A DNA stretch of 64,000 nt, taken from NCBI RefSeq assembly GCF_016907475.1, contig NZ_JAFBCA010000001.1, forward strand, positions 3,410,001-3,474,000, given 5' to 3'. The notes under the pieces are model-generated. The model saw nothing but the letters and a program-made list of their open reading frames with translations, was not told the DNA's origin and made no database searches. This stretch comes from Nocardioides cavernae. Lineage in GTDB: Bacteria; Actinomycetota; Actinomycetes; Propionibacteriales; Nocardioidaceae. Below, one piece after another: positions 29,527 to 61,053 of this stretch. Position numbers and translations under genes: made by a program. The number at the start of each line of letters is the position of its first letter. Position 1 is the stretch's first letter.

Positions 29527-30948
29527 ATGTTCAACAACTCCGATGAGCTCCTGAAGTTCATCAAGGACGAGGGCGTCGAGATGATCGACGTCCGCTTCTG
29601 CGACCTGCCGGGCATCATGCAGCACTTCACGGTGCCCGCGTCGTCGTTCGACCAGAGCGTCTTCGATGACGGCCTCGGCTTCGACGGCTCGTCGATCCGC
29701 GGCTTCCAGGCGATCAACGAGTCGGACATGTCGCTCTTCCCGGACCCGACCACCGCGTACCTCGACCCGTTCCGCAAGTCCAAGACGCTCAACGTCAACT
29801 TCTTCATCCACGACCCGATCACCGGTGAGGCCTACAGCCGCGACCCGCGCAACATCGCGCGCAAGGCGCTGGCGTACCTCGACTCGACGGGCATCGCGGA
29901 CACTGCCTACTTCGCTCCCGAGGCCGAGTTCTACATCTTCGACAACGTCCGCTACAGCACGGGCGTGAACGAGGGCTACTACCACATCGACTCCGTCGAG
30001 GGCTGGTGGAACTCCGGCCAGGACGACGGCCAGAACAAGGGCTACAAGACCCGCCTCAAGGGCGGCTACTTCCCCGTCGAGCCGTACGACCACTACAGCG
30101 ACCTGCGCGCCGACATGGTCAAGAACCTCGAGGCGTGCGGCCTGCTCGTCGAGCGTGCCCACCACGAGGTCGGCACCGCCGGGCAGGCGGAGATCAACTA
30201 CCGCTTCGACACGCTGCTCAAGGCCGCCGACGACGTGATGAAGTTCAAGTACCTCGTCAAGAACACCGCCTGGGACCAGGGCAAGTCGGTCACGTTCATG
30301 CCGAAGCCCATCTTCGGCGACAACGGCTCGGGCATGCACATCCACTCGTCGCTGTGGAAGGACGGCGACCCGCTGTTCTTCGACGAGACCGGCTACGCCG
30401 GGCTGTCCGACATGGCTCGCTGGTACATCGGCGGCATCCTCGAGCACGCTCCGTCGCTGCTCGCCTTCACCAACCCCACCGTGAACTCGTACCACCGGCT
30501 GGTGCCCGGGTTCGAGGCGCCGATCTCGCTGGTCTACTCCTCGCGCAACCGCTCCGCCTCGGTCCGTATCCCGATCACGGGTGCCAACCCCAAGGCCAAG
30601 CGCGTCGAGGCCCGCTTCCCCGACCCGTCGGCCAACCCGTACCTCGCCTTCTCCGCCCTGATGCTCGCCGGCCTCGACGGCATCCAGAACAAGACCGAGC
30701 CCGCAGCGCCGATCGACAAGGACATCTACGAGCTGCCGCCGGACGAGATGGCCGACATCAACCAGGTGCCGACCAGCCTCGACGCCGTGCTCGAGGCCCT
30801 CGAGGCGGACCACGACTACCTGACGGCCGGCGGTGTCTTCACCGACGACCTGATCGAGACGTGGATCCACTTCAAGCGTACCCAGGAGATCGCCCCGGTC
30901 CAGCAGCGGCCGCACCCGCACGAGTTCGAGCTCTACTACGACATCTGA
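29527..30948 (+). CDS. glnA: Glutamine synthetase type I
   Basis: A 473-residue enzyme making glutamine from glutamate, ammonia and ATP. Motifs are [54 protein letters not shown], and the adenylylation Tyr (about residue 401) in [11 protein letters not shown]. The start has AAGGAGG upstream. The final codons YYDI and the stop form the attachment core of the genomic island. The protein end is preserved, but the native terminator is now beyond 61,070. Confidence 0.97.
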
Positions 30949-30950
30949 GC
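30933..30950 (+). repeat. attL core, 18 bp
   Basis: CTACTACGACATCTGAGC covers the last four glnA sense codons (YYDI), the TGA and two further bases. It is identical to 61036-61053; flanking bases differ on both sides (T versus G before, A versus C after), so the identity block is exactly 18 bp. Confidence 0.88.
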
Positions 30951-31078: not shown

Positions 31079-32437
31079 ATGAGCCGCCGCCCCGTGCCGC
31101 GGGCACGGCCCGTGGATGTCATCGACAGCGTCGCGGTGTTTGCCCCGGCCAACTCGGGCGGTTACTACAGGCTGCGCTGGACTGGCCTGGATGGCCGACG
31201 AGCGGACACGTCTGGCGGGCGCGACCTCGACGGCGCACGCTGCAAGGCAGCCAAGGTCGCCGCCGGACTCTCACGTGCGGCCGGCCCGCAGGCCAGCACC
31301 ACCCTGGCCGAGCTCTTCGAGCTGTACCTCAAGGCTGGCAGCAGCCCGTACACCGGCCGGCCCTGGCGACGGTCGACCCGCAACCAGATCGAGGACAACC
31401 TGGGCCGCGCCCTGCGCGGCCACACCGACGCCGCGGCGATGGACGTTACCCGCGAACTACTCGACCGGATGCGCGCACAAGCTGGCACACCACACATGGT
31501 TCGAATCAACACCACCGCCCTGCGGGCGTTCCTGCTCTGGGGCTACCGGCACTCCCCCAGCTTCTTCACCGCCGCCCAAGCCGACCTGCTCCCCCCGCGG
31601 GTGGTCATGCCGGCTCCGGCGGTGAAGGGGACAGAGGCACCGACGCGACGCACCAGGGCCCGCCGAGTCGGCCAGGCTGAGGACTACATCCACGAGGAGG
31701 ACGCCCCGTCAGCAAGCCAGGTGCGCGCACTTTCCCAGGCCCTGCAGCACCGCGTCGGCCCGTGGGGAGCACTGGCACCCGAGCTCGCCGCGAACTGCGG
31801 ACCCCGATGGGGCGAGCAGTTCCAGCTGCGCGCGCCAGACATCCACCTGGACGGATGTCACGAGGCTGAGCAACCGCACCTTCACATCGACTGGGCGATC
31901 GACCCCGGCGCCCCCGCCGACGCTCCCAACGGGCGTCGCGCACGTCCCAAGGGCGACAAGACCCGCATCGCTCCCCTCCCGGCCGTCTCCTTCACCGGCG
32001 TAAGCCTGAAGAACATGGTTCGCGATCGCGTCGACACGGCTCTCGCCGAGCAGTCGTCGGGCGCCAACCCTGACGCCCTCCTGTTCCCGGCGCCGCGGGG
32101 TGGGCTCTGGTGGCACACCAGCTTCGAGGCCGACCTTCTGAGACCGGCCATGATCGAGGCCGGATGGCCTCTCCGCGAGTGGGTAGAGGAGCGCGACACG
32201 TGGGACCCGGTCACCGCCACCTACACGCGCGAGACGCGACACCGCGTCCTCGCGGTGATGCCGTGGCACGCCCACCGGCATCGGTTCGCACGCATCGCCA
32301 TCGACGAGTTCGGCGCCGACCCCGGCGTGCTCATGGCGCTGGGTGGCTGGGAGAACGAGCTCACGGTGGTGCACCGCTACTACCGCACCGGTCGCGAGCA
32401 CACCGAGCGGGGACTAGCGCTGTTCGCCCGGCACTGA
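31079..32437 (+). CDS. Tyrosine recombinase/integrase 1
   Basis: A 452-residue integrase. The catalytic domain shows Arg I in NCGPRWGEQF (R243), the box II H-x-x-R in HAHRHRFARI (H399, R402), GGWEN, and the nucleophile Tyr in VVHRYYRTG (Y434 or Y435). The N-terminal half carries an SAM-like core-binding domain (residues about 70-170). Located 130 bp inside attL, it is a good candidate for catalysing insertion into glnA. It shares the GxRWGEQFQL and HRFARI blocks with the next gene. Confidence 0.9.
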   Translation: MSRRPVPRARPVDVIDSVAVFAPANSGGYYRLRWTGLDGRRADTSGGRDLDGARCKAAKVAAGLSRAAGPQASTTLAELFELYLKAGSSPYTGRPWRRSTRNQIEDNLGRALRGHTDAAAMDVTRELLDRMRAQAGTPHMVRINTTALRAFLLWGYRHSPSFFTAAQADLLPPRVVMPAPAVKGTEAPTRRTRARRVGQAEDYIHEEDAPSASQVRALSQALQHRVGPWGALAPELAANCGPRWGEQFQLRAPDIHLDGCHEAEQPHLHIDWAIDPGAPADAPNGRRARPKGDKTRIAPLPAVSFTGVSLKNMVRDRVDTALAEQSSGANPDALLFPAPRGGLWWHTSFEADLLRPAMIEAGWPLREWVEERDTWDPVTATYTRETRHRVLAVMPWHAHRHRFARIAIDEFGADPGVLMALGGWENELTVVHRYYRTGREHTERGLALFARH

Positions 32438-32536: not shown

Positions 32537-33901
32537 ATGACACAGACCAAGAAGCGCACCCTCCCGCTCGAGACCGTCGGCAACGTCAACATCTTCCAGC
32601 GCTGCTCGAAGGGCTACTTCCGCCTCAAGTGGCTGGAGCCCGACGGCACCCGGGGCGACACCAGCGGCGGACCGACGATGGAGACCGCACGAGCCAAGGC
32701 GGCCGCGATCGACCTGCGTCTCGACCTGGCTGTCGGGCCCCTCGCCGTGACCCCGCTCCGAAAGGCCGTCGACCAGTTCGTCGAGGAGGGTCGTAGCCCC
32801 TACCCGCACAAGCGGACGAACAAGCCGGAGCTGTGGAAGCCCGCCCAGAAGAACAACATTCGCAAGGCGCTCAACCGCTGCCTGCACGGCCACGAGCACC
32901 TGCGGGCTATGGACATCGATCTCGACCGCAAGGTAGTCGACGCGATGCGCGCCCAGGGTGGGACCTACCACGTTGTCCGACAGAACACGTCGGCGCTCCG
33001 CGCGTTCCTGGTCTGGGCCGGTAAGCGGAAGTACATCTCGTACGCACAGGCCGAGCAGCTCCCGCGCGGGGCACTCGCACCCGATCCCGCGTACCCGCGT
33101 CGGTCCCGCCTGATCGAGGAGGCCAACTCCCCCGCCCGTCGTCGCCGGATCGGCGAGGCGCACCAGTACATCCGCGACGAGGACGCGCCCACCCCCCGCC
33201 AAGTCCGCTCGATCTGCGCACAGCTGGCCGCCTCGTTCCCCCTATGGGCGGAGCTCGCCCCGGAGTTCGCCGCGAACTCGGGATGCCGGTGGGGTGAGCA
33301 GTTCCAGCTCACGGCCGACGACGCACACGTCGATGGCTGCAGTGAGGACCCCTCGGCTCACATGCACATCAACTGGCAGATCAACCCCAGCGGCACGGCG
33401 GACGAGGACCGTCGCTGCTTGCCCAAGGGGGACATCACTCGGCGCGCCCCGATCGCACGAGAATCCTTCACCGGCTATCCGCTCCGCGCGGAGATGCGCA
33501 AGCGGGTCGAGCAGGCGCGGTTGGAGCAGCAGGCCGGCACCAATCCGGAAGGGCTGCTGTTTCCGGCTGAGAACGGCGGCATGCTCTGGCACACGTCCTT
33601 CAACGCCGACCACCTCCTGCCGGCCATGGAGCGCGCCGGGTGGCCGATCGACGTGTACGAGGACACGTGGCACCAGTGGGACGGCAAGACGTTCGTCGTA
33701 CGGGTTTCGCGGCGCCGCGACGCACGTCTGACCTGGCACTCGCTTCGCCATCGGTTCGCGCGCATCTGCGTGGACGACAAGAAGCTCTCCGAGAGCGCTC
33801 TCATGGCCGCCGGAGGCTGGATCAACATCGCCACGGTCCAGAACCGCTACTACCGCAGCGGCGACGAGGCCAACAACCAGGCAACGGCGGCCTTCGACTG
33901 A
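32537..33901 (+). CDS. Tyrosine recombinase/integrase 2
   Basis: About 454 residues, paralogous to the gene 100 bp upstream and collinear with it. Catalytic residues are Arg I in SGCRWGEQF (R251), H-x-x-R in TWHSLRHRFARI (H401, R404) and Tyr in NRYYRSG (Y438 or Y439). All are present, so both copies look active. ATG 32537 is chosen over an upstream GTG that would add 13 unlikely residues. Paired integrases may act together or one may drive excision. Confidence 0.9.
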   Translation: MTQTKKRTLPLETVGNVNIFQRCSKGYFRLKWLEPDGTRGDTSGGPTMETARAKAAAIDLRLDLAVGPLAVTPLRKAVDQFVEEGRSPYPHKRTNKPELWKPAQKNNIRKALNRCLHGHEHLRAMDIDLDRKVVDAMRAQGGTYHVVRQNTSALRAFLVWAGKRKYISYAQAEQLPRGALAPDPAYPRRSRLIEEANSPARRRRIGEAHQYIRDEDAPTPRQVRSICAQLAASFPLWAELAPEFAANSGCRWGEQFQLTADDAHVDGCSEDPSAHMHINWQINPSGTADEDRRCLPKGDITRRAPIARESFTGYPLRAEMRKRVEQARLEQQAGTNPEGLLFPAENGGMLWHTSFNADHLLPAMERAGWPIDVYEDTWHQWDGKTFVVRVSRRRDARLTWHSLRHRFARICVDDKKLSESALMAAGGWINIATVQNRYYRSGDEANNQATAAFD

Positions 33902-35253: not shown

Positions 35254-37173
35254 CTACTCGATCGCACCGGCCCGGAGGCGCTCAACGTACCCGCGGAGCG
35301 CCACTACTGTCGTGAACGCCTCGATACCGCGCGCAGCCAACTGGTCGACCACGTCGCGCTCGTCCAACTCAAGGACGACTGGGCGTCCGATGCCTTCCTG
35401 CAGCCCGGCGGGCCAGAATGCCTCGGCAGTGCACAGGTACTCACCGGTGACCTCGTCAGCCACTTCGACGTCGCGCTCCGGAGCGGAGAATCCTTCGTCC
35501 AGAAGCCATGCCACGAGCTCGTCCACCTCGGAGACTGCCTCGTCTTGCTCGACCGCTGGCAGCTCGGCCGGGGCTGCTGAGATGAGGTCCGGCTGTGGTG
35601 TTGCTCCGCTCTCGAGGCTGGAGAGGAACTGGTTGGCAGCCGCGGCGAGAGTGCGACGGCGCGCGGCAAGGAAGTCATGGAAGCGGTCGACCTCCCAGAG
35701 AGCGAGGTCGTTCGGGATCCACTGGCTGGCGAGGGCGCCTGGCTGACTCGCTTCTACCTTCGGCATGTAGGTCGCCGGCGGAGTCGCGCTGATGGAGATG
35801 TTGGTCTGCTTGGTGAGGAAGCAGAAGTTCGCCACGGCGTTGACGTCGCTGCGGTGGTATCCGGCCTTGTACAGCTGCGCCTTGGGGAAGATGTGGTGCA
35901 CGTCCAAGGACGCGAGATGGCCGAGGAGCGACGCCGACAGCGGGACGCCCGTACCGAAGTCACGGGCTGCTTGGGTCCGGGTCAGCATGTACAGCGTCGG
36001 GTAGAAGCGCGAGCCCATCGTGCTGCCGGCGAAGTCGCTCTCCCGCACGGTGAGGTCGCCGCGCGACTGACGGATGACGTCGATGAGCGCGTCGACCCCG
36101 CCGTTGTTGACGGCGTCGAGGTCCTGGCTGAGGAACGTCTCGGTCGACCCGGCGTAGCGGCCCCACATTCCGGTGTGTGCGAACCACGCGAGGAGCCGTC
36201 CCTGCGTTGCGGCGTCGGGGAGCTGCCCTCCGTTGAGGTGCATGTGACGGGCCAGGATGACCAGCGCGAACTTGCTGAACAGGACACGGTCGTGGTCGAG
36301 CCCGAGACGGCCTCCGATCACGTTGAGCCAGGCGCTGACGTACTTGCGGGCAAGCTTCAGGCCGTTCTGTACATCGGCGACCGGGACTCCAGCAAGGGAC
36401 GAGAACGGCGCCTTGCCGGTGACGATCGCGTTGACGACGCGCAGCAGCCAGTCGAGCTTGAAGTTGAAGCCCGCGTTGCGCCACTCGGTCCGGGCGTCGT
36501 TGAACTCCTGGCGAGCCTCGGGCCACGACGCGCACACCTTGGCCAGGGCGAGATCGCCCTTCGACAGCTTGGTGCCGCCCGAGTTGACCCGGTTGAAGAT
36601 GTCGACGACGACGTCGATCGTCTTGTCAGCTCCGCTGACCTCCTCGATGTGCATGTCGCGGCGCTGGATCTCGTTCACCGCGTTCACACGGTCGAGGTAC
36701 GTCGCGAACAGGGCGTTGTCGCCCGCCGCTAGCGCTTGCATGGTCGGGATCTGGCTGCCGACGCCGGAGCCCATCAACGCGCTCACGTCGATCCAAGCCG
36801 GATCATTCTTCATCTTGCCCGGCGCGTAGAACTCGAAGGCCTGGTCGACCACGTTGAAGTACAGGCCGGTGAACGCCTGCGCATTGCCCTCGAAGAACTT
36901 CGGAGCCTGACCGCGAATGACGCCGTACAGAGACGTCGCGCGCTGCTGTCCATCGAGCAGCAACTTGATCGTCCCGTCGGTGCTTACCCCGCCGCGCGCC
37001 GCGGCCGTGTCGGCGGCCGTGTTCCAGGTCATGAACCCACCCACCGGGTATCCGCGGTAGAGCGAGGTGAACAGGCCGCGCACCTGGTCTCGGTTCCACA
37101 CGTAGCCGCGCTGGAACTCCGGCAGAGCGATGTCTCCGCTGTCAATCTGATTGAGGATCTGGGTGACCTGCAT
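35254..37173 (-). CDS. DUF262 and DUF1524/HNH protein, GmrSD-type endonuclease
   Basis: 639 residues. The N-terminal DUF262 domain begins at once (LPEFQRGYVWNRDQVRGLF) and has the DGQQR NTPase motif at residues 74-78. The C-terminal part has the DUF1524 HNH-like motif SLDVHHIFPKAQLYKAG (H426-H427) and an Asn-rich follow-up (NAVANFCFLTKQTNIS). In GmrSD this combination cleaves modified phage DNA. ATG 37173 lies 13 bp after the upstream helicase/nuclease stop, so it is in the same operon as a methyltransferase and Res-like protein. Confidence 0.85.
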   Translation of the reverse strand: MQVTQILNQIDSGDIALPEFQRGYVWNRDQVRGLFTSLYRGYPVGGFMTWNTAADTAAARGGVSTDGTIKLLLDGQQRATSLYGVIRGQAPKFFEGNAQAFTGLYFNVVDQAFEFYAPGKMKNDPAWIDVSALMGSGVGSQIPTMQALAAGDNALFATYLDRVNAVNEIQRRDMHIEEVSGADKTIDVVVDIFNRVNSGGTKLSKGDLALAKVCASWPEARQEFNDARTEWRNAGFNFKLDWLLRVVNAIVTGKAPFSSLAGVPVADVQNGLKLARKYVSAWLNVIGGRLGLDHDRVLFSKFALVILARHMHLNGGQLPDAATQGRLLAWFAHTGMWGRYAGSTETFLSQDLDAVNNGGVDALIDVIRQSRGDLTVRESDFAGSTMGSRFYPTLYMLTRTQAARDFGTGVPLSASLLGHLASLDVHHIFPKAQLYKAGYHRSDVNAVANFCFLTKQTNISISATPPATYMPKVEASQPGALASQWIPNDLALWEVDRFHDFLAARRRTLAAAANQFLSSLESGATPQPDLISAAPAELPAVEQDEAVSEVDELVAWLLDEGFSAPERDVEVADEVTGEYLCTAEAFWPAGLQEGIGRPVVLELDERDVVDQLAARGIEAFTTVVALRGYVERLRAGAIE

Positions 37174-37186
37174 GGCGTGCTCCTGG

Positions 37187-39805
37187 TCAGGCTTCGTAGG
37201 CGATCGCGATGTCCGACTCGTAGTACTCCACCACGGACCGGCCCAGCTTGCGGATGCCTTCGCGCGAGTACTCAAAGTGCAGCGGGATCGTGCGCTTGCG
37301 GTTCCCGATGACGGTGACCTGCTCGATGCGATCGAAGCTGTCGCCGTACCTCTCGGCGTAATCGGCGAGAGCATTGAGCTTCATCCGGGCGTCGTCGAGG
37401 TGGTGGCTGTGCGGGTCGACGATCGACGCCTTCACTTCACCGTCGATGTCGTGGAAGAACACGAAGTCGGGGTGCATCGACCGCCAGTTGCCTGCGTCGT
37501 CGCGGTAGGCGATGGTGAGCGAGTCGGTCGCCGGGCGCGGCGGGTTGCGATACCAGCCGAGCGCGCCGTCGCGCGACATCTCGGTGCGGACGACGTCGAC
37601 CTCCCAGGGGTTGAGTCCGCCGAGCGGATAGAGACCGTTCGCGTCCGCCATTAGGTGGCCCTCGAGCAGCGGCGCTTCGGACACCTCGCCGGTCGCCTTG
37701 TCGACGACCTTGTAGTCCTCCATCCGCAGGCGAGGCTCGCCGAGCCAGCCTCGTTGCGGGTCGACCGCAAGTCCGCGAATCTTCTCGTACTCCTCCTGGC
37801 GCTCGTCGCTGAGCTTGGCGGTCTCCCGGCGGAACTCGTCGAACCAGCGCTCCGCGATCGAGTTCGCCACCTCGTCGACCCGCGCCCGCACGTCGCGGGT
37901 CGAGGCGAGCGCTGCCGTCCGGACGAACGCGTCGCGGAGCTCGTCGTCATCGTCGTCCTCAGGGCACAGGTGGTCCACGTACGCCGTCGCCAGCGAGTGG
38001 CCGAGCGCCTTGGTGGCGAACCGGAAGCCGGTGCGGATCGCCCGGTCGTCGGCGCGGATGACGAAGTCGTTGTAGGTCAGCCTGGACCCGCCCGTGCGAC
38101 CCAGGATCTCCTTGACGTGGACGTCCCAGATCTCCGACACCGCCGCCTCGAGCGCGTCGGCGTGGTCGGCCGCGAGCTTGTCGAGCACGGGGATCAGCTC
38201 GCCGTTGACCGCCTCGAGTGCGCGGGGCCGGATGCCGTCGTGCGAGAGCGCCTGGGCCAGAGCCGTCAGCCGGATCACCGGGCGCGCTCCGCGCTGCGGC
38301 ATCGTCTGGGTCGGCAGCCGGTCCCACACGTCCCACACCGCCTGCGGGATCGCGGGGTTCCGGGTGAGCTCGCACGGCTCGAGGAGCACCTTGCGCTGAG
38401 CCGAGCCAGGCATCTCCTCGATCTGGCCGGTCAGGTACTTCACCACGTTCCCGGCCGTGGTCCGGTCGAAGAACGGCAGGATGCAGTCGACGGCGTTGAG
38501 CCGCTCGTCCCCGGGCACGCGGCGCGCTAGCGGGGAGCGCACCATGCGCCCAAGGAGCTGGGTGATGTGGGTGCTGTCCTTGGCAGGCCTGAACGACACC
38601 ATCACCTCCGCGCGCGGGCAGTCCCACCCGGTGGAGATGGCGTCCTTCGCGACCAGGACGCGGACCTCGCGGGTGCCCTCGACGCGCTGCGGCGGGATCC
38701 AGTCGATCTCCCATGGCCCGAACTTCTGCGGCTTGTGGCCACTAAGGACGTGCCGCACGTGGCGGGCGTCGACGTCTCCGAGGACCGCCGCGATCACGTC
38801 GAGCGCCTGCCCGATCTCGTCGCGCCACGTCGTCTCGCCCGCTTCGTCGTCGGGGGTGTTGCGCACCTGCAGGATGAGCAGGGGTACGACGACGTCTGCT
38901 TCCTCCTGCTGCTTCGCGTAGCCGGCCCACCGGTCGGCAGACGCCTTCAGTCGCTCGGCGGCGTGGCGCACAAACGTCAGATCGAACTGGCCGGCCTCGT
39001 CGGGGATCGTCAGCGCGATCGTGTCCTTGACGAGACCGGAGGCCTGGACCAGACCCGGGTCCACGAGCACCCGCTGCAAGGCGCGCCGGTTCTTCGACGC
39101 GTCGGCAGTCTTCATCGCATCGTCGAACCGCTCGATCGTCGCCGAGATCCCCCACACGATGGGGATCGGCTTGTAGCCCGCGTGCCCGTTGATCAGGCGT
39201 CGCACCAGGGTCGGCTTGTCCTGCACCTTCGCCGGGGTGAACCCGCGGTGGGCCTCGTCGAGGATGAGGTACACCGTGAGGTCCTCGTCCTCGATCGTGT
39301 TGGAGATCGTCTCCCAGATGGTCGACGACTGCAGGTCCGGTGCGACCGCGAACGCAGCGGTTTGCTCAACGTCCGCGTCGGCGACGTGCCCGCGCGTCAG
39401 CAGCGAGTTCTTGCCGAGCTTGCCAGTGTTGAGGAAGTAGACCTTGCCGGGCTCGAGCTTCTTGCGGGAGAACGGCGGCTCGATCACGACCAGGTCGGCG
39501 ACGTTGAGCTGCTCGGAGGCCTGGATCAACCGGTCTCGGGTCTGCAGGTTGAGAGCCGGGTCGTCGGAGAACCAGACGACGACGGCGCCCGGATCGGGCT
39601 CGAATCCGTCCAGCAGGTCACTGCTGCCGTAGAAGAGCGCCTCGATCGCGGCAGCCGCCATCACCGTCTTGCCGGCGCCAGTGGTCGCGGTCAGCGAGAG
39701 AGACGAGCTCTCACCGTCGCGGTGGAACGCGACTCGTGCGCGCTCCAGGTTGTCGAGGACCTTCTCGACCGCGTCGCGCTGGTACGGGTGGAGCTCGAAC
39801 CTCAT
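37187..39805 (-). CDS. Type III restriction Res-like DEAH helicase/nuclease
   Basis: 872 residues. The SF2 motor has Walker A TATTGAGKT (residues 39-47), DEAH at 183-186 in YLILDEAHRGF, and motif VI in ITQLLGRMVRSPLAR. The C-terminal roughly 150 residues contain MHPDFVFF followed by EVKASIVDPHSHHLDDARMK, a layout seen in type III Res-like nuclease ends, although the Glu-x-Lys is unusual. The start ATG overlaps the methyltransferase stop (ATGA), so subunits are made in coupled amounts. Confidence 0.87.
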   Translation of the reverse strand: MRFELHPYQRDAVEKVLDNLERARVAFHRDGESSSLSLTATTGAGKTVMAAAAIEALFYGSSDLLDGFEPDPGAVVVWFSDDPALNLQTRDRLIQASEQLNVADLVVIEPPFSRKKLEPGKVYFLNTGKLGKNSLLTRGHVADADVEQTAAFAVAPDLQSSTIWETISNTIEDEDLTVYLILDEAHRGFTPAKVQDKPTLVRRLINGHAGYKPIPIVWGISATIERFDDAMKTADASKNRRALQRVLVDPGLVQASGLVKDTIALTIPDEAGQFDLTFVRHAAERLKASADRWAGYAKQQEEADVVVPLLILQVRNTPDDEAGETTWRDEIGQALDVIAAVLGDVDARHVRHVLSGHKPQKFGPWEIDWIPPQRVEGTREVRVLVAKDAISTGWDCPRAEVMVSFRPAKDSTHITQLLGRMVRSPLARRVPGDERLNAVDCILPFFDRTTAGNVVKYLTGQIEEMPGSAQRKVLLEPCELTRNPAIPQAVWDVWDRLPTQTMPQRGARPVIRLTALAQALSHDGIRPRALEAVNGELIPVLDKLAADHADALEAAVSEIWDVHVKEILGRTGGSRLTYNDFVIRADDRAIRTGFRFATKALGHSLATAYVDHLCPEDDDDDELRDAFVRTAALASTRDVRARVDEVANSIAERWFDEFRRETAKLSDERQEEYEKIRGLAVDPQRGWLGEPRLRMEDYKVVDKATGEVSEAPLLEGHLMADANGLYPLGGLNPWEVDVVRTEMSRDGALGWYRNPPRPATDSLTIAYRDDAGNWRSMHPDFVFFHDIDGEVKASIVDPHSHHLDDARMKLNALADYAERYGDSFDRIEQVTVIGNRKRTIPLHFEYSREGIRKLGRSVVEYYESDIAIAYEA

Positions 39806-41838
39806 CGCGCGCTCCGTCCCGCTTCGATCTCGAAGTTCCGCAGGTACGCCTCGTAGAGACGTACGGCCTCGACGTGCTCGGGAAGGTCCCGGCACACCGA
39901 CGTGAACAGCCGGTCGTCGTCCGTAACCACGAACGCCACCCGGATCTCCGCACCGCTCGCCTCGCGCTCGGCGAGCGCCTTGAGGAACGGCTCGGTCTGG
40001 TCGAGGTCGGCGAGCACACCGTAGGTGTCCGCGACCTCGAACCCGGCCGAGACGTCGTCGATCCGGCGACCCTGCGAGCCTGCCCGCATCCAGAGCAGCG
40101 GCGCGACCTTCGCGAACTCGCGGTTGCTCGACACGCGCAGCGGCGCCTCATACCTGAGGTCGAAGAACTCGACGTTCTGTTCCAGCCCCTCGGAGTACGT
40201 CGATCCGTCCGGCCGGACGCCGGTGGCGACGGTGCTGATGCGGGGCTTGGTCACGTACTCGTAGACACCCTTCTTCTCCCACTCTTGGTCACCAGGCCGG
40301 TGGCCGGCCTTGCGTAGCTTCTTGGCATCGGCTGCGGCGGCCTCGTTGTTGGTGACGAGGATGCACCGGCGGGTGCCGCCGTCCTCTTCGTTGAGGCGCA
40401 TGACTGCCTCGGCGGTGGTGCCCGATCCTCCGAAGAAGTCGAGGACCACGTCATCGGCATGTCCTGCGATGCGCAGCCAGCGCGCAATGACCTCGTGATC
40501 CTTCGGATTCGGGAACCGCCCCTCTCCAAGGACCTTCTTGAGGTGGAGCCCGGACGCCCGTCGATCACGCTCGAAGACCGAGCCCACCGTCTCTTGTGTC
40601 TGGTCCGAAAGAAACCTTTTGTAGTAGGCCGTCGACGTGTGGTCGACGCCGAACAAGACGCGGTCGTCAGCAAGCAACTTGTCCATGGCCTCTCGGCTGG
40701 TTCTCCAGCCGTTTGGGTTCATCTTCACCGGGAGTCCGGTATGCGGATGCACCAGGTCGTACCTCAGATTTGGCCGAGGGTTCGGGCTGCTTAGATCGCC
40801 GGCGAAGAACACGCGCCCGGCACTGTCAATCGCGTTGTAGCGTGCGACACCATCCGTCAACCGGCCTCGATTGGAACGAATCCACGATCTGAACGCCGTA
40901 GTGGCGAGCGTCGCGTTGCCGTCCGCTTCCGCCCAGGCAGTCGACGCAGCCAGAAGAGCGTCGTCGACGCCCTGCTTCCGATCACTCCACTGGACGTCGG
41001 CAGTCGCCAGCGCTGACTCATCCCGGGCATACACCAACATGTAGTCAGCGCCGTTGGACACGTATCGCGAGTCGTTCTTGCGCCCGCCCTGCCATACGAC
41101 GTCCGAGATGAAGTTCTGCGCCTCGAACACCTGGTCCATCAGCATCCGCAGCCGGTGGTGCTCCTCGTCGCCGATCGCGACGATGATCACTCCGGTCGGC
41201 TTCAGCAACTCTTTCGCGAGCAACAGCCGTCGCTCCATGAACGCGAGCCACTTGGAGTGCTTGTAGTGGTCGTCGCCGGCGACGTACTTGTCGCTGTAGA
41301 TCCAGCCCTCGTTCCCGGTGTTGTAAGGCGGGTCGATGTAGATGCAGTCAACCTGGCTGCGGTGGGTGAACAGCAGCGTCTGGAGCGCGTGGTAGTTCTC
41401 CGCGTTGATGACCGTGTGGAACGGCTTGTCGCCGCCGCGCTCGACCTTCCCTGTCGAAGCGAGGCCCGGGTAGATCGGGTCGCGGAACTCGGCGACGACG
41501 ACGAGCTCGGTGGCCGGCTGCTCCTGCGTCTCGGCCGGCTCGGTGCTCGAATCCTCGATCGTCGCGACGCCGGTGGCTCGGTCGATCGCGATCACTCGCC
41601 ACAGACGGGAGTTCTCCTGGGTGGGGTTCTTGCCGCGCTCGGGGAGGACGTGGACCTTGTCGCCGCGTCGGACCGGGCGGCCGGGGAGCTCGACGGTCTC
41701 CGGGGTGTGGCGCTCGAAGTTGAGACCGAAGGCACGACGGTCGGCGAGCGCGTCGTACTCGGTGCGGAGTTCCTTGGCGATCGCCGCGGTCTTCTCGTTC
41801 GCTTCGAGCTGGCGGAGCAGGTCGTTGAGCCGGGACAC
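39802..41838 (-). CDS. Beta-class DNA N6-adenine methyltransferase (Mod-like)
   Basis: 678 residues. Catalytic motif IV DPPYNTGNE (D169) precedes the SAM motif LDFFGGSGTTAEAV (about 467-480), the order of beta-class type III Mod enzymes that methylate adenine N6. An N-terminal 140-residue extension contains an SH3-like stretch (GRPVRRGDKVHVLPERGKN). The recognition site cannot be read. GTG 41838 has AGGAG upstream and begins 4 bp after the SF1 helicase stop. The 3' end overlaps the Res-like gene. Confidence 0.9.
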   Translation of the reverse strand: MSRLNDLLRQLEANEKTAAIAKELRTEYDALADRRAFGLNFERHTPETVELPGRPVRRGDKVHVLPERGKNPTQENSRLWRVIAIDRATGVATIEDSSTEPAETQEQPATELVVVAEFRDPIYPGLASTGKVERGGDKPFHTVINAENYHALQTLLFTHRSQVDCIYIDPPYNTGNEGWIYSDKYVAGDDHYKHSKWLAFMERRLLLAKELLKPTGVIIVAIGDEEHHRLRMLMDQVFEAQNFISDVVWQGGRKNDSRYVSNGADYMLVYARDESALATADVQWSDRKQGVDDALLAASTAWAEADGNATLATTAFRSWIRSNRGRLTDGVARYNAIDSAGRVFFAGDLSSPNPRPNLRYDLVHPHTGLPVKMNPNGWRTSREAMDKLLADDRVLFGVDHTSTAYYKRFLSDQTQETVGSVFERDRRASGLHLKKVLGEGRFPNPKDHEVIARWLRIAGHADDVVLDFFGGSGTTAEAVMRLNEEDGGTRRCILVTNNEAAAADAKKLRKAGHRPGDQEWEKKGVYEYVTKPRISTVATGVRPDGSTYSEGLEQNVEFFDLRYEAPLRVSSNREFAKVAPLLWMRAGSQGRRIDDVSAGFEVADTYGVLADLDQTEPFLKALAEREASGAEIRVAFVVTDDDRLFTSVCRDLPEHVEAVRLYEAYLRNFEIEAGRSAR

Positions 41839-41842
41839 GTGA

Positions 41843-43357
41843 TTACTCCTGAGCAACGTCGTCTGGGGTGTAGGTGATGGTGGCACGGGCGAACGTGTCG
41901 AGGATGCGTCGGTGGGTCTGGCGCGGCAGCTGCCGGTTGCCGGGTTCGCCGTACGGGTTGCCCGGGCGGGCCGGCGCCTCGCCGAGCAGCGTGTCGAGGC
42001 CGGGTCGGCTGACCATCAGCAGCCCGTGGGTCGCTCGGGTACAGGTGACGGCGAGGCGGCCGAACGCGGAGTTGAAGTCGTTGAGCTCACCGGCCCCGGT
42101 TAGCGGGTGGATGGCGATCGTGATGCCGTTGGTCTGGCCCTGCCACGAGTCGACGGTGGAGGCAACGATGTCCTTGTCGGTCAGGGCGTGCTTGTCGCGG
42201 AGCCGGTCGACGGCGTCGGCCGCGTCATCGACCGCCTGATTCCGGGTCGCCAGGATCGCGACCAAGGGGTCTCCGGTGTGGGTCCTCAGCTCCCACGTGT
42301 CGCGTTCGCCGGTCGGGGCCCCGGTGTCGTCGTACTCGGCCCGTTCGAGGGTGAATCCGGCCGTGAACAGCTCGTCGAGGAGCGCCTCGACGTACTCCAC
42401 CAGCGGCAGGTCGATGTCGGCGGCCTCGGCGGGCGGTAGGCCGTCGACCTCGAGCAGGGTGGGGACGCCGCTGCCGACCGAGCGCCACACCTCGGCGGCG
42501 GTTCCGTTGACCTGGGTTGTGAGGCTGCGGTCGCCGGGCGCGGCGACGCAGTTGAGTCGGTCCCACTCGGGGTAGAACGCTCGCCACAGGGCGAGCGCTC
42601 CGGCGGGCGGGCGCCACACGGCCGGGAGCTCGCGCTCCCAGGTGTGGTCGGGGTCCTTGCCGTCGGTGTAGTCGGTCGGCCAGGCGCGGTAGGGGTTGTG
42701 ACCGGGGTCGCCGCGCCACGGATTGCTGCCGACTTCCAGCGGCGGGAGCTGTCCGACATCGCCGACACCGACCCACAGGGGTGCTGCCTTGTTGACGCGG
42801 TCGAACAGGTAGTGCGGAAGCTGCCACGCCTCGTCGACGAACAGCACGTCGTAGGGGGCGTCGCCGTTGCGGCCGGGCCCGAGTGCGTCCTTCTGGCGGC
42901 GCAGCTCGCTCGGCGCGCCGAGCTTGTGGCTGGTAGCGACCACGACCTTCGCGTCGGTGGGGATCTCCGAGGTCTTCTCGGCGATCGTGACGTGCTTGAT
43001 GACGTCATCGGGAAGGTCGTTGACGGTGCCCTTCTTCACGAAGATGCACACGTAGTCCTTGCCGATCGCCTTGGCGATGTCGACGGCGAGCGGGTGGATC
43101 TGTTTGTTCGTAAACGCGATGATCGCGACCCGAGAGCAGCGTTCGTGAGCGACGGCGTCCTGCACAAGCCGCTTGAGCGCGAACGACTTGCCCGCGCCGG
43201 CGGCGGCCTTCAGCAGGACGCGCCGGTGGTCGCTCGTCCCGGCTAGGGCGGCCTGGAGGGCAGCCGACGCCTCGATCGCGACGGCGGTGTTGCCGGCTGC
43301 CGCTGCGGCGTGGTGCACGCCCGTCGCGGTCTCGGCGGGTGGAGTGAACGTTTCCAT
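41843..43357 (-). CDS. Upf1-like superfamily 1 helicase
   Basis: A 504-residue compact SF1 helicase. Walker A AAAGAGKS is at residues 51-58, Walker B is VLFVDEAWQL, motif III GDVGQLPP, motif V STVDSWQGQTNG and motif VI VTCTRATHGLLMV. It lacks the large inserted domains of UvrD. Its ATG overlaps the nuclease stop by one base (TGATG), implying obligate co-translation with the Cas4/RecB-like protein, a nuclease-helicase pairing reminiscent of AddAB or Dna2. Confidence 0.85.
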   Translation of the reverse strand: METFTPPAETATGVHHAAAAAGNTAVAIEASAALQAALAGTSDHRRVLLKAAAGAGKSFALKRLVQDAVAHERCSRVAIIAFTNKQIHPLAVDIAKAIGKDYVCIFVKKGTVNDLPDDVIKHVTIAEKTSEIPTDAKVVVATSHKLGAPSELRRQKDALGPGRNGDAPYDVLFVDEAWQLPHYLFDRVNKAAPLWVGVGDVGQLPPLEVGSNPWRGDPGHNPYRAWPTDYTDGKDPDHTWERELPAVWRPPAGALALWRAFYPEWDRLNCVAAPGDRSLTTQVNGTAAEVWRSVGSGVPTLLEVDGLPPAEAADIDLPLVEYVEALLDELFTAGFTLERAEYDDTGAPTGERDTWELRTHTGDPLVAILATRNQAVDDAADAVDRLRDKHALTDKDIVASTVDSWQGQTNGITIAIHPLTGAGELNDFNSAFGRLAVTCTRATHGLLMVSRPGLDTLLGEAPARPGNPYGEPGNRQLPRQTHRRILDTFARATITYTPDDVAQE

Positions 43358-46062
43358 CAGTCGAGGTCGTCCTCAGTGAGATCGGCGGGCGAACTGACCG
43401 GGGCCTCTGCGTACGGGTCGCCTTGGGGTTGTCCGGCGGCTGCGGCCTCGAACGCGTCGTCGTTGCGGACCGGGGGCCAGGTCTGCGGGTTGAGGAGGCC
43501 CGCGGCGCGACGTTCGGCGAGTGTGTCGGACCACTCGGCCTCGTTCACCTCGTGCGGCTTGCAGCAGTAGGCGTGGGCGTCGGGGTCGTCGGAGTAGCCG
43601 GCGGTGAGACAGTCGGGCTTCGGCGCGGCGTGCCCGTCGACGGCGGGCCGTTTCACGTTCAGGTTGCGTCTGTAGGGAGTGCCCGCGAACCAGTCGCAGT
43701 CGGCCACCACGACACGATCTCGAACGGCGAGGGTGGGGGCGATCGCGGCCCCCCAAGAGAGGTGTCCGCGTGGGGCGTCCTCGTCGATGCCGTCCTTGCT
43801 GAGTGGCCCGATTGCCATCCCCTGGAACTGGAAGGACCCGCCCTGCACCTTCAGCCCGACAGCCGGGTCTTCGACGCAGGGGTCGTCGTTCACGTGGAGC
43901 AGGACCACCGACGAGCCGGCGGCGATGCGCCGCGAGTGGACGTCGAGGACGAGCGGGTCGACGGAGACGACGTCGGCGAACGCGACCATCCGCTGGCCGG
44001 CGTCGGAGGCCAGGTCCTGGGCGGCCTGCGGGTTGGCGAGCGCAAGGAGCTGGTCGCGGCACTTCTGGTCGTCCTGGATCGGCTCGACGAGTGCGTTGCG
44101 CCACCAACGATAGGTGCGTCCGAACCGAACGAGGTCGGAGGCGTGGAGGCGCAAGCGGCGCTGCCAGACGGCCTGGGCGTCCGCTTCGATCGTGCGGTGC
44201 ACGTCGCGCAGGCGGGACGGCTGATCGTTGTCGAGGATCTCGATCGCCTTCGTCAGGACGTCGGACTTGTAGGTGAGCTCGGCGCGGACGAGTCGGTCGT
44301 ACTCGGCCAGGTTGCGACGCTCTTCCGGACCGGAGATCGTCGCGTGGATGGCATTGGACTGGGTGTTCGTCAGCCGGGCGCCCGGAGTGTGTTCGAGGTT
44401 CTCGATCTCGTCGGAGAGGTTGCGGTGGTCGACGGCGCTGCCCTCGAGGAACCACGCGACGACGTAGTCCAGACGCAGGGCGCTGACCGTCGGGCCGCCT
44501 ACGACGTGGTGACGGGTGAGCACCTCCTGGGCGTTGACGATCGGCGAGCGCAGGGTCATCGCGCGAGCGCGGTCGTCTTCGAGCAGGAACGCGACCGCGG
44601 TGCGGTCGTCCTCGCTCAGGCGGAGCGGCACCTGTGCTGGCTCGCCGTCGAAGGTCAGCTGGGGGCGGCCCATCAGCTTGTCCTGCGCCCAGCGGAGGCG
44701 ACTCAGCTCGAGGCCGGCCAGGTTGTCGGCGATGGATACGAGGACGTCGGCGGTCATCTTGTCCGGCACGACGAGGTGGACCGGTTCAGGGTTGTCCGGA
44801 TCCGCCAGACGACGGTCCTTGATCGCCTTGGTGAGAGCGGACCCGATGACGCGGACGACGGCGCGACGTGTTTGCGGCGACTGCGGCTCGGGAAAGACAT
44901 GCTGGATCCAGTCTCCTGGGCCGTCGGCGGTGACGACCTGGATCCCGATCCCGTGAACGCCGAGGGACGCGGCGTCGGCCTTGGCGAGCACGAAGTTGAC
45001 GGTGCCGGGGAGGCCGATTGGATCGACGCGTCGCTGCTTCGTCTGCTGGGCGACGCCTGCGTTGGTGGCGACGACCTGGGCGATGAGGGACGGCTGCGCC
45101 GCGCCGATGTGGCCGGTGCCGTCGACGATCCCGGCGACGAGCGGCCGGACGTCGCGCGGGATGCCGATCTCAACCAGCACATCGGTGGGGTCAGCGGACT
45201 TGCGCAGTTCGGCGCGGCAGTACGCGAACAGCGAGCACGACGGGCAGGACCCGGGGTCGAAGGTCGCGACGAGGTGTTCGGTGAACAGGTCGAGTTCGCT
45301 CGGGTCGAACGCAGCGTCCTTCGCTTCTGCTCGACGTTCGGCAATCCGCATCGCGACCTCGCGACGGTGGTCGGCCAAGTCCTCCACGAGTGCCTCTGGT
45401 TGGAGGAACGCGTTACGCGGGACCGCGAGGGCGCCGTACCGGTGGACGCTCATGCCGGCGGGGAGCTTGGACCACGCCGCGGCGGACTCGGCGCCGACGG
45501 CGACCTGGAGGAATCCCTTCAGGAGGCGTGAGTCCTCCACCCGCGAGCGGTGGCGCTCGTAGTCCTTTGCGTCCCCGACAACGAGCCAGGATCCGCTCTG
45601 GTCGACTGTCGGAGCAACGACGGCGAAGTCGGGCTTGACGTCGGTCGCGCTGGTGTTCTCGAAGCCCGCGAACGGAACGGCCAGCTGGTGGATCAGGGTC
45701 GCAGCACCGTCCCCGATGGCCCGCTGGTGGGCCGCTGAAAGGAGGTCCGCTGTGCGGTCCTTGTTAATCTTGGCATCCGCGATCACTACCTCGCTGGGCC
45801 GGTTGAGCCCGACCGCACCGACGGTGGTGGTGACCGTCTGACTGGCGAACGCCTCGTTCTTGACCAGCCGCTCGAACGTCATGGCGCGCATCCAGCGAGC
45901 GTCGGGTATCCGGCCGGACGTGTCCGGATGACCGAGCTTCTCCGCCAAAGCTCTGCGTGACATTCCGGTGATCAGCGGGTCGGTGCGACGGAACCGCGCG
46001 CACGCCGCGTGCGCTGAGGCTGCGACCGCACTCGACCCGCCCCCGATGACCTTCGTCGACAC
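43357..46062 (-). CDS. RecB/Cas4-like Fe-S nuclease with long C-terminal region
   Basis: 901 residues. The N-terminal third has a PD-(D/E)xK core: PD at 144-145 in VKPDFAVVAP, D164-x-K166 in VVGDAKDYER and a following QxxA-type helix in LLKGFLQVAVG. Four cysteines fit a Cas4/AddB cluster: C21 near the N-terminus plus C273, C276 and C282 in CPSCSLFAYC. The C-terminal 600 residues are unassigned; CDWFAGTPYRRN and a late CC pair are notable. It is the first gene of the five-gene operon. Confidence 0.75.
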   Translation of the reverse strand: MSTKVIGGGSSAVAASAHAACARFRRTDPLITGMSRRALAEKLGHPDTSGRIPDARWMRAMTFERLVKNEAFASQTVTTTVGAVGLNRPSEVVIADAKINKDRTADLLSAAHQRAIGDGAATLIHQLAVPFAGFENTSATDVKPDFAVVAPTVDQSGSWLVVGDAKDYERHRSRVEDSRLLKGFLQVAVGAESAAAWSKLPAGMSVHRYGALAVPRNAFLQPEALVEDLADHRREVAMRIAERRAEAKDAAFDPSELDLFTEHLVATFDPGSCPSCSLFAYCRAELRKSADPTDVLVEIGIPRDVRPLVAGIVDGTGHIGAAQPSLIAQVVATNAGVAQQTKQRRVDPIGLPGTVNFVLAKADAASLGVHGIGIQVVTADGPGDWIQHVFPEPQSPQTRRAVVRVIGSALTKAIKDRRLADPDNPEPVHLVVPDKMTADVLVSIADNLAGLELSRLRWAQDKLMGRPQLTFDGEPAQVPLRLSEDDRTAVAFLLEDDRARAMTLRSPIVNAQEVLTRHHVVGGPTVSALRLDYVVAWFLEGSAVDHRNLSDEIENLEHTPGARLTNTQSNAIHATISGPEERRNLAEYDRLVRAELTYKSDVLTKAIEILDNDQPSRLRDVHRTIEADAQAVWQRRLRLHASDLVRFGRTYRWWRNALVEPIQDDQKCRDQLLALANPQAAQDLASDAGQRMVAFADVVSVDPLVLDVHSRRIAAGSSVVLLHVNDDPCVEDPAVGLKVQGGSFQFQGMAIGPLSKDGIDEDAPRGHLSWGAAIAPTLAVRDRVVVADCDWFAGTPYRRNLNVKRPAVDGHAAPKPDCLTAGYSDDPDAHAYCCKPHEVNEAEWSDTLAERRAAGLLNPQTWPPVRNDDAFEAAAAGQPQGDPYAEAPVSSPADLTEDDLD

Positions 46063-46298
46063 CTGTCTCCCGTTCCGTTCCCACCGCAGTCTTTACCTTC
46101 TTGGCTGACGGTAGTTGAGGGGCCGACCGAATGGACCGTCTTGACGAAACTGCGAGGCCGTCGCGTCGGATGTGGCCTTCTGCCGCTGCGGAGGCTCAGG
46201 AGTGTGTGCGAGTGCGGGCCCGCGTCGGAACGCAAGAGCGAGGAGGAGCGCGTGGATCTTCGTCGACGCCACTTCCCTCAACCGGACCTGACGCCGAA

Positions 46299-46347: not shown

Positions 46348-46767
46348 TCACTCGCCCGATGCGGACTTCCGCAGTTCCTCACGAAGCTCCCGCAGCGTCT
46401 TCCCGGACAGCACGTGGGTCCAGTTCGCCCAACCGTCGATCTGCGACCCCACCAAGTCGCGCAACGCCGGCGAGGGCTCCCGGTATGAGTTCACTTCTGT
46501 GACGGTCCAGCCGTGGTTGTCCACGATCGCCCCGAAGTCCCGACCCTTGCGCACCTGACGGTGCTCCAGCGAGTCCCCCGGTTTGATCAGCCCCGCCTCA
46601 ATGAGCGGCAGCAGTCGACCCGGCATCACGGTCGGCTCCGGCTGCGGGATCTCGACCGCGGCGTCCGGCAGCAGCAGCCGTCGCAACACCGTGTTCGGCG
46701 ATTCGAACCCGCGGACGTGCCCCTCAAGGAAGCGGTAGACCTCCTCGTCGACCTCTATCCTGTGCAT
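46348..46767 (-). CDS. SeqA-like N-terminus plus RAMA domain protein
   Basis: About 139 residues. The first 35 (MHRIEVDEEVYRFLEGHVRG, then NTVLRRLLLP) resemble the ribbon-helix-helix dimerisation part of SeqA. The rest (LLPLIEAGLIKPGDSLEHRQ, DFGAIVDNHGWTVTEVNSYR, and GWANWTHVLSGKTLRELREE) fits the RAMA domain, associated with adenine-methylase restriction systems and predicted to sense modified DNA. It lies upstream of the methyltransferase operon on the same strand; a methylation-responsive regulator is an inference. ATG 46776 is an alternative start. Confidence 0.7.
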   Translation of the reverse strand: MHRIEVDEEVYRFLEGHVRGFESPNTVLRRLLLPDAAVEIPQPEPTVMPGRLLPLIEAGLIKPGDSLEHRQVRKGRDFGAIVDNHGWTVTEVNSYREPSPALRDLVGSQIDGWANWTHVLSGKTLRELREELRKSASGE

Positions 46768-47002
46768 GGCGACCATCCCTTCTCTTGCGATTTCTGTGAC
46801 TTTGACACTTGCAGATTAGTGGAGTTGGGATGGTCGCGCAAGCTTTGCCCATGGCATAGCCACGGTCGCCCTGGTGCCGACATGGCGGATCTCCGCAACC
46901 ACCCACCGGCACGTTGGCTCCGCGGACCCACAGCGCCTCCAGATCCACAGCCCGCAACAGAGGTGCGTAGAAATGTCGTGGTCTCCCACGATCCTGTCCG
47001 CC

Positions 47003-61035: not shown

Positions 61036-61053
61036 CTACTACGACATCTGAGC
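61036..61053 (+). repeat. attR core, 18 bp
   Basis: CTACTACGACATCTGAGC, identical to the glnA 3' end at 30933-30950. It marks the junction where the original chromosome sequence downstream of glnA resumes. Confidence 0.88.

Follow-up and report, generated by a model that had tools for sequence, protein, structure and literature searches.

Which of five tightly packed genes in the actinobacterium Nocardioides cavernae belong to one functional unit, and what might such a unit do? The genes, here named A to E, lie on the minus strand of the window, by which we mean the whole stretch of 64,000 nucleotides analysed (positions 3410001-3474000 of a single 4.85-Mb contig). A reading made from the sequence alone, without database searches, had taken them for one layered system built of a nuclease, a helicase, an adenine methylase, a Res protein and a GmrSD-like protein. 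We arrive at a smaller unit. The order of genes A to D is beyond chance, being the same in 11 of 32 other loci; the novelty lies in the A-B pair, the four genes together make up a new variant of type III restriction, and E is incidental. As to function, we propose, with about an even chance of being right, that A-D is a cassette for type III restriction that includes its own Dna2-like pair for degrading DNA ends, carried on a candidate mobile island. All five frames are open, as follows.

43357..46062, minus strand: gene A, 901 aa, GTG start; iron-sulphur (Fe-S)-type PD-(D/E)XK nuclease, predicted from conserved residues and fold
41843..43357, minus strand: gene B, 504 aa; superfamily 1 (SF1) helicase, probably SF1B (Upf1/Dna2-like)
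39802..41838, minus strand: gene C (Mod), 678 aa, GTG start; type III Mod, N6-adenine-type methyltransferase
37187..39805, minus strand: gene D (Res), 872 aa; type III Res, DEAD-type motor
35254..37173, minus strand: gene E, 639 aa; GmrSD_N (DUF262) protein with an HNH-like stretch, an add-on

A and B overlap by 1 bp, B and C are 4 bp apart, C and D share a 4-bp ATGA overlap and 13 bp separate D from E, the same values that the sequence-only reading had given. Its gene identities also held, Pfam backing B, C, D and E, and conserved residues together with the fold backing A. The model libraries used were Pfam, PADLOC 2023 and NCBIfam; in PADLOC only Mod, Res and E score clearly, and B gives weak GajB matches.

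Results

The A-B pair

No family in Pfam, PADLOC or NCBIfam matched A up to the cut-off of E 0.01, and comparison with solved structures by sequence gave no match. Conserved residues and the predicted fold, taken from models of the whole protein as in all our structural searches, indicate that A is an Fe-S PD-(D/E)XK nuclease of the Dna2/Cas4 class. Residues 1-300 resemble the PD-(D/E)XK domain of Cas4, MGME1 and Dna2, with E64, D145 and D164-x-K166 as the predicted catalytic residues and C21, C273, C276 and C282 as the predicted Fe-S ligands. Residues 351-628 are predicted to adopt a DnaQ/RNase H-like fold, and the C-terminus carries a Cys/His cluster (C818, H830, C833, C834, H837) and a conserved acidic tail. 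B is matched in Pfam by general helicase/ATPase models only, AAA_19 (4e-07) and AAA_30; its conserved Walker A and B and later SF1 motifs, with the modelled fold, suggest that it is probably an SF1B helicase of the Upf1/Dna2 type.

Six exact peptide patterns, searched in one genome per species, led to 32 further loci with A, all from Actinomycetota. B follows A in 31 of them by tblastn, and in the remaining one, L031, the start of B is present at the contig end; L033 holds fragments of both genes only. In the window and in all of the 32 loci but L033, A and B are two separate genes, and in 28 of 30 loci measured they are spaced by -14 to +7 bp. The other two gaps, of 41 and 59 bp, may reflect the choice of start codon. 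Pairwise identities of A and of B correlate closely over 12 loci (r=0.95; 0 of 2000 permutations). A and B form a pair, in constant order and at short spacing.

The pair is rare. A was found in one of 296 Actinomycetota genomes, that of the window itself, and had no match in phage records or in viral contigs, the latter searched with two peptide patterns only. B is confined to the A-B locus in all 31 searchable A-B genomes. It was detected in three of 396 genomes, namely that of the window, one A-B genome whose coordinates coincide with those of the L025 genome, and lastly G252; close matches (at least 49% identity) in this set came from the window and another A-B locus only. The relative in G252 is a 435-aa helicase of 31% identity within a run of three coupled genes, and no A-like frame was found within 19 kb of it. 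L094 holds a run laid out alike. In L094 (9914-13841) and L121 (8237-12098), a distant B-like helicase of about 435 aa is coupled to two genes, one of about 500 aa and one of about 357 aa. Neither of these two has a Pfam match in L094, where the run adjoins a UvrD-Cas4 gene and type III Mod/Res genes. The three-gene run of L094 and L121 is perhaps a distant analogue of A-B.

Linkage of A-B with Mod-Res

Pfam and PADLOC name C and D as the type III Mod/Res core that the sequence-only reading had recognised. C matches N6_N4_Mtase (Pfam, 2e-31) and MTase_III (PADLOC, 4.9e-160), with DPPY and FGGSGTT motifs visible in the sequence, and D, immediately downstream, has a DEAD-type ATPase motor (ResIII, Pfam 2e-10). 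Mod-Res stands directly after A-B on the same strand in the 11 loci L002, L005, L006, L007, L009, L010, L011, L012, L023, L030 and L032, from Nocardioides, Microbacterium, Arthrobacter, Gordonia, Agrococcus, Paeniglutamicibacter and one metagenome bin. The number likely rises to 12 of 32 if the operon of L029 is split by contig ends: here B is the last gene before the contig end, and a second contig from the same genome begins with the end of Res, followed by a UvrD-Cas4 fusion gene (F4, treated below). Two of 72,556 plasmid records, both from Rhodococcus, carry relatives of A (52%), B (63%), Mod and Res (54%) in order, and neither has a relative of E.

Res matches in the 31 A-B genomes were in 11 of 12 cases the copy beside A-B, the twelfth being a 34% relative in G421. 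Among 395 other Actinomycetota genomes only five have a Res match, each as a Mod-Res pair; the stretches of 5.7 to 19.9 kb retrieved around these pairs contain neither A nor B. The difference (11/32 versus 5/395) gives a Fisher value of 2e-10, which serves as a guide only, the sets having been drawn differently and the loci being related. The sequence-only reading had named, as grounds for taking the operon as a chance assembly, an order unique to this genome or a nuclease-helicase pair and Mod-Res-DUF262 genes usually found apart. On this the outcome is divided. A-B-Mod-Res does recur, in several genera and on plasmids, but Mod-Res stands without A-B in all four of the other genomes with visible upstream sequence; the contig of the fifth (L042) starts inside Mod.

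The association is also visible in the phylogeny. A tree of A plus B was built from the window and 30 loci (31 rows). Mapped on it, the Mod-Res label takes four changes, against a mean of 9.8 when shuffled, and a value as low was reached in 0 of 500 shuffles. Over 12 loci the identities of A and Res correlate with r=0.74 (0 of 2000 permutations), and those of Mod with Res and with A only with r=0.41 (14 of 2000) and r=0.25 (78 of 2000), weak values which fit a swapping of the Mod target region. In the Res tree, a branch with modest support (78/99) separates the proteins of A-B loci from the five others. The nuclease-helicase pair noted in the sequence-only reading is in this way tied to Mod/Res, and its suggested action on DNA ends is plausible. 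Two Gordonia loci have A proteins 64-71% identical to those of L006, L007, L012, L023 and L032 and Res proteins 55-57% identical to those of the same five. Because A stays close while Res has diverged, their Mod-Res module was probably replaced.

Comparison with Nocardioides silvaticus (L002), the closest relative, illustrates how Mod varies inside the cassette. DNA homology extends over 37157..46251 on the minus strand at 84-91%, covering A-D and about 190 bp upstream of A, and is broken at 40192-41214, in the Mod target-recognition region, where one 125-bp piece aligns at 73%. At the protein level, six 40-residue bins of Mod (about residues 240-480) are 22-32% identical and the other twelve 47-95%, and Res is 95% identical. 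Among the near relatives window/L002, L007/L032 and L010/L011, the target-recognition core of Mod is 20-45% identical, and Res 88-95%. These alignments indicate that the specificity of Mod is swapped through an exchangeable central target-recognition region.

The endonuclease motif of Res ends in DPH rather than (D/E)xK in all 19 aligned rows (12 beside A-B, five from other genomes, two from plasmids). Its PD is kept in 18 of the 19 and reads VD in L041. Res had no match to Pfam RE_endonuc up to E 0.01, whereas the Res of L094 has one, and comparison of D with solved structures by sequence gave no match. We considered that the Res nuclease is dead, so that A must do the cutting, but as a rule this is unsupported: DPH occurs also in the five Res proteins from other genomes, four of them with no A-B in view, and a motif common to Res proteins seen without A-B cannot alone show that A replaces the Res nuclease.

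Gene E and the slot after Res

E matches GmrSD_N (Pfam, 1.6e-26), with no Pfam match to GmrSD_C up to E 0.05, and has an HNH-like HHIFPK...N stretch seen by eye only; its best PADLOC match is HEC-05. The window's five-gene order, with its E, was found in none of the 32 other A loci. A relative of E occurs in one of them (tblastn, 1e-5), in L023, where it is 26% identical and lies upstream of A. E matches appeared in 14 of 198 genomes, its own included, and the stretches of 9.9 to 19.9 kb retrieved around its three closest relatives in the 197 others (50-54%) contain no A-D gene. Because E is not conserved across loci, we rejected the five-gene unit of the sequence-only reading; E is an optional add-on outside the conserved cassette.

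Absence of E may in one case be secondary. DNA homology with L002 stops about 16 bp into E, and directly after the L002 Res (about 18999-19040) a short frame, VQVTPMMKDQG followed by a stop, resembles the E start MQVTQILNQID; because of this E-start-like frame and its stop, E may have been lost in L002 rather than gained in the window. Other genes occupy the slot elsewhere. L030 (18952-21117) encodes a GmrSD_N/GmrSD_C protein with a C-terminal RAMA domain that overlaps the end of Res by 4 bp, and is the only locus seen with another GmrSD-family gene there; in L009 (18996-22304) a gene for 1102 aa with no Pfam or PADLOC match starts 23 bp after Res.

These data bear on one alternative, that the five genes came together by chance in a defence island and have no function in common. 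The lack of conservation of E, and the occurrence of Mod-Res and of E relatives apart from the rest, would agree with it, but several genera, and plasmids too, repeat the A-B and A-B-C-D orders with little space between the genes. For the run as a whole we consider it very improbable: it is already contradicted for A-D, and stands for E.

Other neighbours of A-B

The commoner extra gene in such loci, which the gene set of the sequence-only reading omits, is F4, a UvrD_C plus PDDEXK_1 (UvrD-Cas4) helicase-nuclease fusion. It is present in eight of the 11 A-B-Mod-Res loci, in six convergent after Res and in two upstream. In L006, where Res is incomplete at the contig end, as in L029, another contig end holds a C-terminal piece of Res plus F4, consistent with the same layout. 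F4 was found in 12 of 31 A-B genomes as against six of 246 background genomes (Fisher 5e-9), only three of these six at 50% identity or more. Of these three, two (L094, L095) have F4 next to type III genes with no A-B, and the third (L096) has it beside a Mod-like fragment. The window genome has no match to F4 at E 1e-60.

Type ISP enzymes stand beside A-B in five of 32 loci (L008, L014, L024, L028, L031), compared with three of 246 background genomes (Fisher 7e-4), and eight of 31 A-B genomes have a match, five by A-B and three elsewhere. On the A plus B tree the type ISP label needs four changes for four rows (shuffled mean 3.9); since it is unclustered, type ISP and A-B have met repeatedly rather than been inherited together. 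A different type III Res-Mod pair adjoins A-B in L016 and L019. Further neighbours are BREX genes (L013), Zac genes (L015), a DndH/HerA-like gene (L024), a PbeA-like gene (L029) and Leo genes (L020); L021 has both SMC-type and GmrSD genes, and so, judged by clustering, has L022. Among the 25 of 69 matching families listed for 69 neighbours of seven further loci are CRISPR type I-E genes, which by gene sizes probably belong to L004, a DpdF-like gene and other single matches. The neighbour list is partial, comprising representative large proteins and these 69; an enrichment of defence genes around A-B as a whole is our impression, and its measured part is the Res, F4 and type ISP counts.

This variety raises the question whether A-B is a complete stand-alone defence system, comparable to Gabija or Hachiman, with Mod-Res an independent second system alongside. 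We regard this, the main rival, as a serious possibility, but on balance a doubtful one. It would accommodate A-B next to type ISP, other type III, BREX, Zac and probably type I-E systems, and Mod-Res elsewhere without A-B. Against it, one A-B clade retains Mod-Res in its operon across several genera, with Res diverging in step with A, and one would expect an independent module to become separated more frequently.

The same neighbourhoods would suit, as a rather unlikely extension, a general role for A-B as plug-in effector of the DNA-marking immunity of Actinomycetota, a split Dna2-type machine that would be recruited by several systems (type III, type ISP, BREX), and in this case the Res of the cassette, with its PD...DPH motif, would serve mainly as sensor and motor and A would destroy the DNA. 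Dna2-like enzymes elsewhere are repair enzymes, and the identified neighbours of A-B are mostly DNA-cutting systems; A-B might therefore repair or resect host breaks made by the cell's own restriction enzymes, as a control of self-damage. We think this distinctly unlikely, as A-B is rare (A in one of 296 genomes), is carried also on plasmids, and such cutting systems are found without it.

Discussion

Proposed function

The reading we prefer, a type III cassette with its own end-degrading pair, builds on the gene order, the A-B pairing, the co-inheritance of A-B with Mod-Res, the predicted folds, the conserved residues and the presence on plasmids. From these we infer complex formation, polarity, substrate, joint action and a part in phage defence. 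Mod would methylate adenine in a short host motif set by its exchangeable target-recognition region, and Mod with Res would find unmethylated invading DNA and act on it with ATP. A and B would work as a two-chain Dna2-like machine, in which B would be the motor, loading on a DNA end or single strand and moving 5' to 3', the polarity expected if it is SF1B, and A would degrade the strand, so that the invader could be neither repaired nor replicated. E would be a separate, optional nuclease for modified DNA (type IV-like) in the downstream slot, in place of which most related loci keep the UvrD-Cas4 helicase-nuclease beside the cassette.

Relation to known systems

Mod and Res resemble classical type III restriction-modification of the EcoP15I kind: the window Mod matches the EcoP15I Mod (4zcf, 2.6e-48), Res has the ResIII motor, and the Mod target region is exchangeable. 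The differences are the DPH in place of (D/E)xK with no RE_endonuc match, and the two extra upstream genes of the operon. A link between a UvrD-Cas4 fusion and type III Mod/Res was published in 2017 (PMC5704561). A helicase-nuclease tied to type III Mod-Res is common to both cases, and the same protein type is our F4; A-B, however, is a separate two-gene pair with an Upf1/Dna2-like motor, and section 8 of that paper describes no such pair.

The sequence-only reading had called the pair AddAB-like. In AddAB and AdnAB a UvrD-like motor and a nuclease share a subunit. By Pfam, A has no helicase domain match and B no nuclease domain match, so we rejected this label on architecture; with nuclease and motor on separate chains the pair is better described as Dna2-like. 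From eukaryotic Dna2 it differs in being split into two genes and in the extra RNase H-like domain and C-terminal region of A, and Dna2 and A gave no sequence-level match. The TM0106 family (TIGR03491), a fused RecB-like nuclease and helicase, has the same order of parts. B aligns with its helicase part (hhalign 96.9%), a weak alignment extends to the Fe-S stretch of A, and the middle of the family protein is presumably RNase H-like. TM0106 is, however, one chain and not two, A scores a probability of only 2.5% against it, and the first strand of the RNase H-like domain of A has no visible DxE. A split TM0106 is supported for B only, and we retain it as a resemblance. E shares GmrSD_N with the type IV GmrSD/BrxU enzymes and, among solved structures, matches the DUF262 protein 7p9k, which we take to be BrxU; it differs in its missing GmrSD_C match and in an HNH-like stretch recognised by eye.

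Our literature search, in which subscription papers and preprints were mostly not covered, found no description of an A-B-like pair with Mod-Res. The locus is of interest as it reveals a two-gene nuclease-helicase family, with no model of its own, that recurs beside DNA-marking immune systems. It also offers the testable idea that restriction enzymes may carry dedicated DNA-degrading partners rather than rely on RecBCD-type enzymes of the cell. Because PADLOC scores only Mod, Res and E clearly, loci of this kind are likely logged as plain type III restriction.

The candidate mobile island

Features at the edges of the region suggest that A-E are carried by a candidate island, about 30 kb long and located at the 3' end of a glutamine synthetase gene.

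30933..30950, plus strand: left 18-bp direct repeat (candidate attL), spanning the stop codon of 29527-30948, the glutamine synthetase gene
61036..61053, plus strand: right 18-bp direct repeat (candidate attR), identical to the left copy
32537..33901, plus strand: tyrosine recombinase (Phage_integrase, 1.4e-06), just inside the left repeat
31112..32437, plus strand: protein beside the integrase, clustering with it (F29), with no Pfam match of its own

The perfect 18-bp repeat scored best among those looked for between the two flanks (E 0.002); its pattern matches the window twice and gave no match in 100 shuffles, a test made after picking the repeat. In two relatives in which an empty site was sought, the glutamine synthetase was not found near the right-flank gene, so the ends are placed by the repeats and the integrase.

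Upstream of A, a small protein (46348-46776, minus strand) has SeqA_N (4.5e-08) and RAMA (4.5e-10) matches and is possibly a reader of modified DNA; no relative was found in the other fetched loci (tblastn, 1e-6). DNA homology with L002 does not reach beyond 46251, and the only gene found shared upstream of that point, 6 kb from A, encodes a 983-aa protein (52086-55037) with no Pfam or PADLOC match. Its L002 relative, 43% identical, is separated from A by 6-7 kb and has the opposite relative orientation.
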